Origin: Acetomicrobium hydrogeniformans ATCC BAA-1850
GTDB lineage: Bacteria; Synergistota; Synergistia; Synergistales; Acetomicrobiaceae
DNA length: 64,000 nt
Direction of reading: 5' to 3'
Assembly (NCBI RefSeq): GCF_000160455.2
Contig: NZ_ACJX03000001.1
Coordinates: 1,870,001-1,934,000, forward strand
Notes under the pieces: model-generated
Told to the model about the DNA's origin: nothing
Seen by the model: the letters and a program-made list of their open reading frames with translations, nothing else
Database searches by the model: none
In this document: positions 45,770-49,801 of the stretch, in pieces
Position numbering within the stretch: the first letter of the stretch is position 1
Layout: every line of letters starts with the position of its first letter
Made by a program: the position numbers and the translations under genes

Positions 45770-46610
45770 CACTCTTTTGAGCTAATGTCCAAGCCATCTC
45801 GACTATCTTTCCGGCAACATCAACGCCTGTTATCCTTTCCTGAGAGCTTCTAAACTCCGGTTGGCCGTTTACTTCGTTCACGAGATAGCCGTTATGGGTC
45901 TCAAACACATCGACGGCAAGTAATTTTCCACCAATAGCCCTTTGAACATCAACAAGCAATTTCTTGAGTTCATCAGTCAGAGGGTAGTTTTGTGCCTCGC
46001 CGCCCCTTGCAGTGTTCGTAATCCAATGATTGCTGCACCTTCTTATGGCCGATACGGGAGAATCTCCTATTATGGTGGCCCTTATGTCGAATCCATTTTT
46101 GTCGACATATTTTTGAATGTAAATTGCGCTGTGCTGCGAACCCAAGTGCAGCTTATGTTCGACTACTGCTTCCAGCGCGTCCTTGTCGTTGACCTTTGCC
46201 AAAAGCCTTCCCCAACTGCCGACGGGGGGTTTCAAGACGACGGGATATCCCATTTTTTCAACGCATTTTAGTGTGCCCTCCAACGAAAAGGCCACAGCAT
46301 AATCGGGTTGGGGAATGCCGGCTATGGAGAGCTTCGAAGAAGTGGCGATTTTGTCTGAACATATATTCATGACATTGGAAGGGTTTATGGTGGTTACGCC
46401 CTTTGCCTCTAACGTTAACGCCAGCGCAAGATTTTGCCTGTGCCCAATACAGCGGCACAGGGCCACATCTTTCCTTTGACAAATATCGTTGGGCCAGACT
46501 AAGTCGGAGACGACAATCGATTCTAAAGGGATTTCTCTTGCCTTTGCTGCCTCAATTATCATTTTCTCCTCAGCCCTGAGACGGGAATAGAACATGAAGA
46601 CCTTGGCCAT
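45753..46610 (-). CDS. lysX: ATP-grasp ligase LysX: attaches the substrate to LysW
   Basis: RimK-like ATP-grasp ligase of 285 residues that joins alpha-aminoadipate or glutamate through its amino group to the C-terminal glutamate of LysW. It begins MAKVFMFYSRLRAEEKMI; YPVVLKPPVGSWGRLLAKV holds the ATP lysine, and VFETHNGYLVNEVNGQPEFRSS the metal-binding acidic residues. Its ATG overlaps the lysW stop as TAATG, behind GGGGAGA inside lysW. AAA versus glutamate specificity cannot be settled here. Confidence 0.9.
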   Translation of the reverse strand: MAKVFMFYSRLRAEEKMIIEAAKAREIPLESIVVSDLVWPNDICQRKDVALCRCIGHRQNLALALTLEAKGVTTINPSNVMNICSDKIATSSKLSIAGIPQPDYAVAFSLEGTLKCVEKMGYPVVLKPPVGSWGRLLAKVNDKDALEAVVEHKLHLGSQHSAIYIQKYVDKNGFDIRATIIGDSPVSAIRRCSNHWITNTARGGEAQNYPLTDELKKLLVDVQRAIGGKLLAVDVFETHNGYLVNEVNGQPEFRSSQERITGVDVAGKIVEMAWTLAQKSDENDF

Positions 46611-46783
46611 TATTCTCCCCAATCCTCCTGCACTTCGGGTGCTTCCGCCACCGTGAAGGGATCCAAAGAAATCACTTCCAGTTCAGACCCGCAGTCGGGA
46701 CAGGTGATAATTTCCCCTTCTAAAAGTTCATCGGATACTTCCACCTTTCCTTCGCACACTACGCAATTTACAAATTTAGACAT
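46610..46783 (-). CDS. lysW: Amino-group carrier protein LysW
   Basis: Very small acidic carrier protein, 57 residues, on which lysine or ornithine is built. Two CxxC pairs, C7-x2-C10 and C29-x2-C32, form a zinc ribbon (NCVVCEG and TCPDCGSELEV). It ends in EDWGE, the conserved tail whose last glutamate carries the growing amino acid. The ATG is preceded by GGAGGGATCGTC. First gene of the lysW-X-Y-Z-J-K operon, 37 bases after a consensus -10 box. Confidence 0.96.
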   Translation of the reverse strand: MSKFVNCVVCEGKVEVSDELLEGEIITCPDCGSELEVISLDPFTVAEAPEVQEDWGE

Positions 46784-46819
46784 GACGATCCCTCCAAACC
46801 AGAATTTAATAATTTCGAG

Positions 46820-46848
46820 ATTATAAACTAGAGTTTCATGTGTGTCAA
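46820..46848 (-). promoter_or_regulatory. Consensus sigma-70 promoter of the lys operon
   Basis: On the minus strand TTGACA (46848-46843) and TATAAT (46825-46820) are separated by exactly 17 bases. Both hexamers are full consensus. The ISL3 target duplication begins at the base next to the -35 box. Confidence 0.92.
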
Positions 46849-46857
46849 GCTCTTAAC
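46849..46857. repeat. Left target-site duplication of the ISL3 element
   Basis: GCTCTTAAC stands directly before the left inverted repeat and recurs at 48178-48186 after the right one. ISL3 elements usually make 8-bp duplications, so one of the nine matching bases may be chance. Confidence 0.9.
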
Positions 46858-48177
46858 GGCTCTATTTCAAATAGTGTGGAAACATTTTTGTGGTAAGAAC
46901 CCCAGCATCATCTTTTTTGTATAGACCTCTATGTTCCTTAGACCGAAGGAGAGACGTTTTAGCATCTTCACCTTCGTATTACATCCTTCGGTATAGGCGT
47001 TGGTAGTCTTGTTATCGAAGTAGTTTAAGATTGGTTGTTGCCACCTCTTAAGTGTATTTGCCCATCTTCTGGCCTCGGCATCGTCAGAGGCCTTCAGGTT
47101 CATGATGACTAGCTCCAACTGCTTAGAAGCCTCTCCTTTGTCCTTTGCACTGTAAAGCTTCCTCAATTTTTCCTTTGCCCAGTAGAAGTCCTTTAGGTTT
47201 GGGTATTTGCTTAAAAGCTCATCTAGCTTTTTTACCCCCTCCTCGCTTAGACGCTCAAAGCCAACGAGGAATATCTTTTTGGGTATCTTCACCTTGCCCT
47301 TGTTCGTTACGTCCTGTTCGATCCTCCTTGCCTCATCCATGTATTTGTTAGCATTAGCTATCACGTGGAAATGATCTACGACCACGTCAGCCTTAGGAAA
47401 TAGCCTTTGGGCTAACTTTCTGAAGCCTTCCTTCATGTCTATGCACACTTCCTTGACCTTATGGGGAGGGATCTTCTTTAAAAATTCCTCCAGGGTAGAA
47501 AGGCGATCGTCCTTTAGTATTCCAAGCACCCTCTTTGCCCTTACATCGGTCACCATAATAGCCATCTCCTGATGCCTGAAGCTGTGTTCATCTATCCCGA
47601 TGTGAAGTTCTTTTAAGTCGTCTGCGACTAACTCCGGTAGCTTTATCATCGCTAAGGCTTCCATCAATACCTTTTTAACCCTGCCGTAGGAGATGCCAAG
47701 CATCTTTGACACCTCTTTGAAGCTAGTATGTTTTAGCAACCACAGTACCCACATCTCGGCCGTATTGGTGAGCCTGCTTTTTGGCCTTAGGATCTCAAGC
47801 TGTTGGGTGAAGGTACGACCACATCTCCTGCACTTCCACCTCTGCAGTCCCTGTATCTTTAGGTATATCCTCTTGCCGCAAACGTAAGCATGTAGCACCC
47901 TCCTTGGCTTCGCTTTACCGTGCCTGTAAAGGTGCTTTGAGGCGCAGTGAGGACAGAAGATCTCCTTCTCCTTTTTTGGCTGAACTTTAATTACAATGAT
48001 CTCCTCCTCTTCGACTACCTCCAATACCCTTAGACCTTCCAACCCAAGCAGTTTGGTGATATTATATTTATGGCCTTTGGCCATGGTGGTAAGAGCCTCC
48101 TTTCTTAATGGGTTTGGTTGGTTCTTACCACCATTATATTTTTTGTGTCAAATTTCCACACAAAAGATTATAGAGCC
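46858..48177 (-). mobile_element. Complete ISL3-family insertion sequence, 1320 bp
   Basis: The ends are imperfect inverted repeats of about 25 bases: both read GGCTCTAT, eight variable bases, then GTGTGGAAA when viewed inward, and a second matching block GTGGTAAGAACC follows further in on both sides. A 9-bp direct repeat flanks it. One transposase gene fills the element. Intact ends, intact gene and identical target duplication suggest a fairly recent insertion. Confidence 0.93.
46867..48084 (-). CDS. ISL3-family transposase
   Basis: DDE transposase of 405 residues. An N-terminal zinc-binding region (CPHCASKHLYRHG, then WKCRRCGRTF) is followed by a helix-turn-helix (FKEVSKMLGISYGRVKKVL) and the catalytic domain with GIDEHSFRHQ, VVVDHFHVIANANKY and, near the end, TTNAYTEGCNTKVK, the typical ISL3 spacing of the DDE residues. 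No frameshift or stop interrupts it, so it is probably active. Confidence 0.95.
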   Translation of the reverse strand: MAKGHKYNITKLLGLEGLRVLEVVEEEEIIVIKVQPKKEKEIFCPHCASKHLYRHGKAKPRRVLHAYVCGKRIYLKIQGLQRWKCRRCGRTFTQQLEILRPKSRLTNTAEMWVLWLLKHTSFKEVSKMLGISYGRVKKVLMEALAMIKLPELVADDLKELHIGIDEHSFRHQEMAIMVTDVRAKRVLGILKDDRLSTLEEFLKKIPPHKVKEVCIDMKEGFRKLAQRLFPKADVVVDHFHVIANANKYMDEARRIEQDVTNKGKVKIPKKIFLVGFERLSEEGVKKLDELLSKYPNLKDFYWAKEKLRKLYSAKDKGEASKQLELVIMNLKASDDAEARRWANTLKRWQQPILNYFDNKTTNAYTEGCNTKVKMLKRLSFGLRNIEVYTKKMMLGFLPQKCFHTI

Positions 48178-48186
48178 GCTCTTAAC
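48178..48186. repeat. Right target-site duplication of the ISL3 element
   Basis: GCTCTTAAC, identical to 46849-46857, directly after the right inverted repeat. Confidence 0.9.
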
Positions 48187-48190
48187 ATGG

Positions 48191-48219
48191 TTCATAAAAA
48201 ACACAAAGCCATGTATAAT
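48191..48219 (+). promoter_or_regulatory. Candidate promoter of the AbgT-type transporter gene
   Basis: A consensus TATAAT at 48214-48219 has only a weak -35 (TTCATA) 17 bases upstream. It was probably back-to-back with the lys promoter before the IS separated them. Confidence 0.4.
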
Positions 48220-48277
48220 TCCAAGGTGACTTTCAAATTTTAAATGTCGTTTTAAATATCGAAGGGAGGAATTCGTT

Positions 48278-49801
48278 TTGGCTAAGAGTGAGAATGGCAT
48301 CTTATCGAGGTTCGTTGGATGGATTGAACGAGTCGGAAACAAGTTGCCCCACATATTTTGGATATTTTTGTTTTTCTGGCTACTTGTAATTGTCCTTTCC
48401 GGTGTTCTGGCTGGCATATCTGCAGTTGCACCAGGCAGCAATGAGAAAGTCGAAATTATCAGTTTATTAAATCGAAAGGGATTGGATTGGATTCTGTCAA
48501 ATATGGTCGGAAATTTCACCAAGTTTCCGCCATTAGGTCTGGTTTTGGTTATGATGATGGCAGCTGGTTTTGCTGAAAGGGCTGGATTCATACCTGCGAT
48601 AATGAAAACGCTCACCACGGTTCCTGATAAATTGATGATCCCGGCCATTTTTATAATAGGCATGTGTTCCAATTTAGCCTCAGATGCCGGAACAGTTATT
48701 ATTCCGCCTTTAACAGCTGCACTATTTTATGCAAGAAAGAAAGATCCTATTTTTGGTTTAATATTAGGTTATGTTGCTGCTGCTTCGGGATTTACTGCAA
48801 ATTTGTTTATAGCCGGAACTGATGTGCTCTTGGCAGGCATTACAAGCACGTCAGCAAGAATAGCTGATCCATCCTATAACGTTTATCCCACAGCCAATTA
48901 CTTTTTTATGATTGCATCCGTTTTTGTGGTTACCATTGTCGGAACAGTATTTACCATTAAATTTGCTATGCCAAGGCTGGCGAGATGGGATCCCGAATAT
49001 GAACATGCTCAAGTTCCTCATGAATACTTAACACCCCTTACAGAGAGGGAGCTTAGTAGTATGAAAAAAGCCGGATTGGCTGCTTTTGGTTTCTTTCTTT
49101 TGATGTTTCTTCTGACGCTGATACCGGGCGGTCCTCTGCGTGATCCCGTTAAAAACACGATAGTTCCCTCCATTTTCTTGAGGGGAATGATTCCAATCCT
49201 GTTCGTTTTCTTCGTTATCGCCGGTTGGGTATACGGAAAGAACGTGGGCACGGTCAAAAAGCCTACCGATATGATCAATTATATGGTAGAGAGCATGAAG
49301 ACCATGGCCTCATACATCGTTGTCATGTTGCCGATAGCTAACTTTACCTATACTTTTACCCATACAAATATGGCATCAATTCTTGCCATCAAACTTGCCC
49401 ACATTTTAGAAGTGGCCAACTTTACAGGCGTGGGGCTTTTTGTGTCCATAGTAATAATCTCAACTTTTGTGAACCTGTTTTTGTCCAGCGGTTCAACGAA
49501 GTGGGCCTTTTTAGCGCCTGTCATAGTACCAATGATGTATTATCTCGGTTACACTCCCGAATGGACGCAGTTACTCTATAGAATAGGAGATTCCAGCACA
49601 AATTCATTTACTCCGCTTTTCACTTACTTTCCGATAATTCTTGGTTTTGCGAGCGTGTATAAGAAAGACGTGGGAGTAGGGACCATTATATCTAGAACGT
49701 TTATCTATTCCCTGCTCTTTTTGGTCACCTGGACGGCGATGATATTAGTTTGGTTTTATCTGGGACTACCTCTTGGACCGGGCGCTCCAATAAGGCTATA
49801 A
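48278..49801 (+). CDS. AbgT-family transporter
   Basis: Integral membrane protein of 507 residues with about twelve hydrophobic segments. GFAERAGFIPAIM, CSNLASDAGTVIIPPL, and the C-terminal SSGSTKWAFLAPVIVPMMYYLG are typical of the AbgT family. Known members import p-aminobenzoyl-glutamate or export sulfonamides. The next gene encodes an M20 amidohydrolase, the same pairing as abgT with abgA/B in Escherichia coli, so uptake and cleavage of an N-acyl amino acid is likely. TTG start behind GGGAGG. Confidence 0.9.
   Translation: MAKSENGILSRFVGWIERVGNKLPHIFWIFLFFWLLVIVLSGVLAGISAVAPGSNEKVEIISLLNRKGLDWILSNMVGNFTKFPPLGLVLVMMMAAGFAERAGFIPAIMKTLTTVPDKLMIPAIFIIGMCSNLASDAGTVIIPPLTAALFYARKKDPIFGLILGYVAAASGFTANLFIAGTDVLLAGITSTSARIADPSYNVYPTANYFFMIASVFVVTIVGTVFTIKFAMPRLARWDPEYEHAQVPHEYLTPLTERELSSMKKAGLAAFGFFLLMFLLTLIPGGPLRDPVKNTIVPSIFLRGMIPILFVFFVIAGWVYGKNVGTVKKPTDMINYMVESMKTMASYIVVMLPIANFTYTFTHTNMASILAIKLAHILEVANFTGVGLFVSIVIISTFVNLFLSSGSTKWAFLAPVIVPMMYYLGYTPEWTQLLYRIGDSSTNSFTPLFTYFPIILGFASVYKKDVGVGTIISRTFIYSLLFLVTWTAMILVWFYLGLPLGPGAPIRL

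Follow-up and report, generated by a model that had tools for sequence, protein, structure and literature searches.

An ISL3-type insertion sequence group that appears to integrate directly upstream of sigma-70-type promoters

The insertion sequence at the lys promoter

The window analyzed here, a stretch of 64,000 nucleotides from the heat-loving bacterium Acetomicrobium hydrogeniformans ATCC BAA-1850, carries a lys operon whose first gene, lysW (46622..46783, minus strand; PF21344), lies behind a promoter composed of a TTGACA -35 box (46843..46848, minus strand) and, 17 bp away, a TATAAT -10 box (46820..46825, minus strand), both together matching the consensus at 12/12 positions. Upstream of this promoter lies an ISL3-family insertion sequence (IS) of 1320 bp (46858..48177, minus strand), delimited by its ends (GGCTCTA/TAGAGCC) and by comparison with an empty site, and beyond it an AbgT-type transporter gene (48278..49801, plus strand; PF03806) divergent from lys. 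The IS is flanked by a 9-bp target duplication, GTTAAGAGC on the lys strand, whose lys-side copy (46849..46857, minus strand) abuts the -35 box, base 46849 being at once the neighbor of TTGACA and the first base of the duplication; the abgT-side copy (48178..48186, minus strand) is a direct repeat of it. The R end of the element (transposase 3' side) faces the lys promoter, and the transposase gene is transcribed in the lys direction. The first-pass annotation had described an ISL3 element placed flush against a fully consensus -35 box, leaving the lys core promoter intact and separating it from the AbgT-type gene, a description borne out on each of these points.

The transposase gene (46867..48084, minus strand) is intact and encodes 405 residues, with a zinc ribbon, a helix-turn-helix (HTH) and a DDE domain according to Pfam, NCBIfam and an AlphaFold2 model (mean pLDDT 89.9). 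Its scores were 277 bits against NF033550 (cut-off 180) and 194.7 against PF01610 (cut-off 23), and PF14690 and PF13542 were also above cut-off, giving the zinc ribbon and HTH ahead of the DDE domain that are found in ISL3; residues D165, D216, D237 and E366 are invariant across ISL3 relatives. An 8-bp target duplication is typical of the ISL3 family but does not define it, and the group of elements to which the window IS belongs makes 9-bp duplications. We file this group as ISL3 by its transposase, as a separate clade within the family.

Comparison with relatives indicated how the locus looked before the insertion. Genome G061, of the same species, holds the lys operon, the promoter and abgT without the IS (aligned pieces 96-100% identical), and its spacer has a single repeat copy, TTTAAGAGC, one base off the duplication in the window. 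In G004, of the same genus, abgT and lys are likewise divergent and the IS is absent, similarity to the window being confined to the stretch from the -35 box to the start (84% over 68 bp). The insertion at lys is lineage-specific; no copy occupies this site in G061, G004 or Acetomicrobium sp. UBA5826 (genome G003, LysX 96% identical), and the -10 box is kept in all three.

It had also been claimed that the IS replaced everything upstream of the core promoter, including any operator, and might have made lys expression constitutive. Replacement holds beyond the first 9 bp, whereas the target duplication has kept 9 bp of native sequence, at about -36 to -44, next to the -35 box. As for an operator, the 100 bp at 48178-48277 that once lay beside the promoter match G061 only (96%), G004 giving no match, and in UBA5826 all sequence upstream of the same lys -35 box has been replaced, independently of the window. 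With nothing in G004 matching the replaced stretch, and UBA5826 having lost it independently, the comparison of these three genomes gives no sign of a conserved upstream operator, and for the same reasons constitutive lys expression is unsupported. The effect of the IS on lys is probably modest, the core promoter, the leader and the first 9 native upstream bp being kept.

Several other features of the region were recorded. A candidate abgT promoter, TTCATA-17-TATAAT (48191..48219, plus strand; 10/12 matches), has a score that alone is within chance expectation, as a promoter scan of 46600-48400 returned 4 promoter-like sites against 3.2 in shuffled sequences, the only perfect one being that of lys; in the IS-free alignment 13 bp separate its -35 from that of lys. 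An imperfect inverted repeat (ACTTGA-n12-TCAAGT, 46827-46850) spans the lys -35 box and spacer, perfect in UBA5826 and decayed in the window and in G061, and is a possible operator lying beyond the reach of the IS. In UBA5826 (L037, 5437-5800; also L077) there is no abgT, and roughly the first four fifths of the amidohydrolase gene that follows it are gone as well; the leftover C-terminal amidohydrolase fragment adjoins the lys promoter just upstream of the -35 box. In G001 (89% complete; L075, 1-560) the entire lysW-lysK block is absent between a bifunctional nuclease gene and abgT, and a LysX search of that genome returned a distant relative only.

A fixed distance between IS ends and -35 boxes

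Ends of the IS were searched for in the window genome, in 6 genomes of the genus and in 180 genomes of the order (the window's own included); the DNA searches scored no more than four candidates per genome, which leaves the census incomplete, and several genomes are fragmentary. Seven genomes yielded usable ends, five belonging to Acetomicrobium (G000, G061, G001, G002 and G003) and two to another family in that order (G005 and G014). Host DNA was read outward from each end, L denoting the transposase 5' side and R the 3' side. Matches starting after base 4 of the IS end (L090 and an eroded second end beside L002) and internal matches were dropped, and merging identical flanks, either fetched twice or shared between species (L005/L098/L094), left 44 distinct junctions (21 L, 23 R).

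In 20/44 junctions TTGAC begins at host base 10; at no other offset from 1 to 30 does it begin in more than one, the counts at offsets 8, 9, 11 and 12 being 0, 0, 1 and 0. Chance is excluded as a source of this peak, since TTGAC occurs at only 0.0011 per position in the window (binomial p ~8e-48, treating the junctions as independent). The shorter TTG is found at offset 10 in 24 junctions, and these, together with L049 (TAGACT-TATAAT) and L002 (offset 11), make up 26 promoter-side junctions (17 at R ends, 9 at L ends); the weakest of them is L006, with TTGGAC and a poor -10.

Grouping the junctions by hand gave 33 insertions, 11 two-sided and 22 one-sided, although the flank pairs L056/L120 and L002/L118 are alike and the number of independent insertions may be 31. 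Eight of the two-sided insertions were paired by exact 9-bp repeats, the others being L002, L054 and L095. All 11 have a -35-like box on one side (one at base 11), and in each of the eight exactly paired ones TTG occurs at offset 10 on just one of the two sides (6 TTGAC, 1 TTGCC, 1 TTGCT). Among one-sided insertions, 15/22 show the -35 at offset 10 and 7/22 do not on the side that was recovered.

L124 (G001, C51 6329-6453) is a MITE, about 125 bp long and consisting of the two IS ends, 9 bp upstream of a TTGACG box. L002 (G000, C1 1812643-1813967) is a decayed copy with 10 stops in its transposase, located 10 bp upstream of the TTGACA that precedes a dapA-like gene; next to it is another, more diverged end of this type. 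The flank of L090, dropped above, also has a TTGACA nearby. A remnant L end is found at the same promoter before a tRNA-Val gene in G000, G061 and UBA5826 (L005, L098 and L094), thus some insertions are old and common to several species.

These junctions bear on whether the lys insertion was retained for a change in lys expression, constitutive or uncoupled from abgT, its position being then a product of selection. The IS does replace the DNA from about -45 upward and split the divergent genes, and the same upstream region was independently lost in UBA5826; however, the identical offset recurs at unrelated promoters, tRNA operons among them, across seven genomes, and the upstream sequence is not conserved between species. 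We consider selection at lys very improbable as the cause of the position. The flush position at lys is better read as a habit of this IS group, which makes an explanation specific to lys unnecessary.

The target sites as promoters

A -10 box, defined by at least 4/6 matches at a spacing of exactly 17 from TTGAC, is present at 15 of the 20 offset-10 TTGAC sites. As background, 454 kb of the window genome gave 59/919 for all TTGACs and 15/87 for those outside open reading frames (ORFs) of at least 80 aa, the latter differing from the target sites with Fisher p 1.4e-6 in a comparison that sets one genome against targets from seven. A similar test using the 64-kb window as background, with 8 non-coding sites, was not significant (p 0.15). 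The profile of 25 target sites displays TTGAC and, at the -10 position, TAnnnT, the latter not having been a selection criterion. Moreover, weak -35 boxes accompanied by a good -10 are also used (TTGCTT/TATATT and TAGACT/TATAAT).

An ORF of at least 80 aa behind a ribosome site follows 15 of the 26 promoter-side junctions (this limit passed over lysW at the lys locus and found lysX instead), and tRNA genes lie downstream of the target promoters at 4/12 loci scanned. The genes behind these promoters include lysW and, from reading the translated starts, infC-like and dapA-like genes. The promoter pre-exists at four orthologous empty sites, namely those of lys (in G061), of the infC-like gene (in G000, G003 and G002), of C8 (in G003) and of L003 (in G002, G003 and G061), while a search for the L004 site gave no usable one. 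The infC-like and C8 empty sites each hold one exact 9-bp copy, which supports a duplication length of 9 bp. Taken from their sequences, the targets look like working promoters.

It could be argued that the transposase reads the TTGAC word only and that selection, by removing insertions inside genes, produced the bias towards promoters. TTGAC is indeed by far the strongest element of the target profile, but 72/87 non-coding TTGACs are without a -10 box at 17 bp whereas 15/20 targets have one, and sites with TAGACT, TTGCTT, TTGCAT and TTGCCA were used as well, mostly with a -10-like box. We regard recognition of the word alone as unlikely, though with an appreciable chance of being right. The -10 enrichment relative to non-coding TTGACs and the sites joining a poor -35 to a good -10 favor the view that the promoter, or the polymerase bound to it, is recognized rather than TTGAC alone.

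We therefore hold it very probable, on the evidence of these junction sequences, that this IS group integrates just upstream of sigma-70-type promoters, with the -35 box beginning where its 9-bp duplication ends. The transposase-DNA complex would recognize the promoter as a whole, whether through direct reading of the -35 and -10 DNA or through docking on the promoter-bound RNA polymerase/sigma complex, the latter being in our view the slightly more likely route, and the cut would fall at the upstream border of the -35 box. Such a position places the IS where neither a gene nor a core promoter is broken.

Mimicry of sigma-70 region 4 by the HTH of the transposase was considered and rejected, the Sigma70_r4 match (20.5 bits) being below its cut-off of 24.1 and that to sigma70-ECF reaching 19.1 against 42.9; no Sigma70_r4 hit was obtained in the sister transposase L047 or in the ISL3 element L232. 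Sigma factors were also absent among the VIA structural matches listed, an absence that excludes nothing.

Relation to other ISL3 elements and to known promoter-targeting elements

Other ISL3 elements share with the window IS the transposase family and terminal repeats starting with GG, their transposases being 23-30% identical to that of the window. Nine of them with clean ends were compared, one copy each, taken from 5 of 12 loci (11 plasmid loci and L078) and from 4 of the 70 ISL3 loci obtained with an alignment query. The duplication is 8 bp long in all nine, and in no case is it followed at once by TTG, as judged by eye for the five from the plasmid and L078 loci; in L236 a TTG follows after one intervening base, with no -10 box to accompany it. 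As far as sampled, the promoter rule is thus not a general ISL3 property, while a weaker preference may exist elsewhere in the family. In viral contigs, the transposase query found no relative, and a 16-base R-end pattern gave 62 stretches that we regard as chance; none passed either test except L156, in which TTGAC stands at offset 10 but the inner portion of the IS end is missing.

Insertions that avoid genes are as a rule tolerated better, so that randomly inserted copies might persist in compact genomes only when located just upstream of promoters. Selection for harmlessness, however, would not yield a single base-exact distance, as seen in the near-empty neighboring offsets, and the nine other ISL3 elements display no such positioning; we find survivorship of this kind hardly credible, and integration at promoters by the IS group itself remains the reading we adopt.

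The closest known parallels are described in the main text of Guerillot et al. (2014, PMC3942029), from which ISL3 is absent. There, TnGBS/ISLre2 elements (p-MULT 3) are reported to insert 15-17 bp ahead of the -35 boxes of sigma-A promoters, in most cases with their right end nearest the promoter, and contact with the RNA polymerase initiation complex is proposed. The window group resembles them as a DDE element found at a fixed distance upstream of a sigma-A-type promoter. It differs in that distance, its -35 starting at base 10 after the 9-bp duplication rather than at 15-17 bp, in using both ends (17 R and 9 L of 26) where TnGBS/ISLre2 favors the right one, and in its transposase, assigned to ISL3 by Pfam (4 families listed) and NCBIfam (11 families listed), without an ISLre2-type model in either list. 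ISKra4 elements (p-MULT 4) insert at this same 15-17 bp distance from sigma-A -35 boxes and, like the window group, have promoters on either side of the element (PMC3942029), but belong to a different transposase family and have inverted repeats matching at 83-100%, whereas those of the window IS match perfectly over 7 bp and at 73% over 26 nt. Elements of p-MULT 3 and p-MULT 4 are described in that paper as having in common a sequence motif that includes a conserved aspartate and lies between domains N1 and N2.

The solved structure nearest to the transposase model was that of ISCth4, an IS256-family (p-MULT 1) element (Foldseek E 7.2e-9; VIA Z 15.2, 317 residues aligned, rmsd 6.1), while a sequence search of solved structures with the window transposase returned no transposase. 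Since the model is closest to ISCth4, the predicted fold lies close to the Mutator-like transposases, a group with known cases of promoter targeting; for IS256 itself, insertion is described in the same main text as likely random (PMC3942029). In the open-licence literature we found no report of promoter targeting by ISL3 elements, nor a paper joining ISL3, TTGACA and insertion sites, although a report in a subscription journal may exist.

If our reading is true, an ISL3 lineage is added to the small set of promoter-targeting elements known from prokaryotes, and its rule is simpler than theirs, the duplication ending exactly at the -35 box. Comparing it with ISL3 relatives in which the rule is not seen would help in asking how DDE transposases sense promoters in bacteria, and a site at which gene and promoter both stay intact could be of interest to designers of insertion tools. 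Moreover, copies of such elements would mark promoters in a poorly studied lineage.
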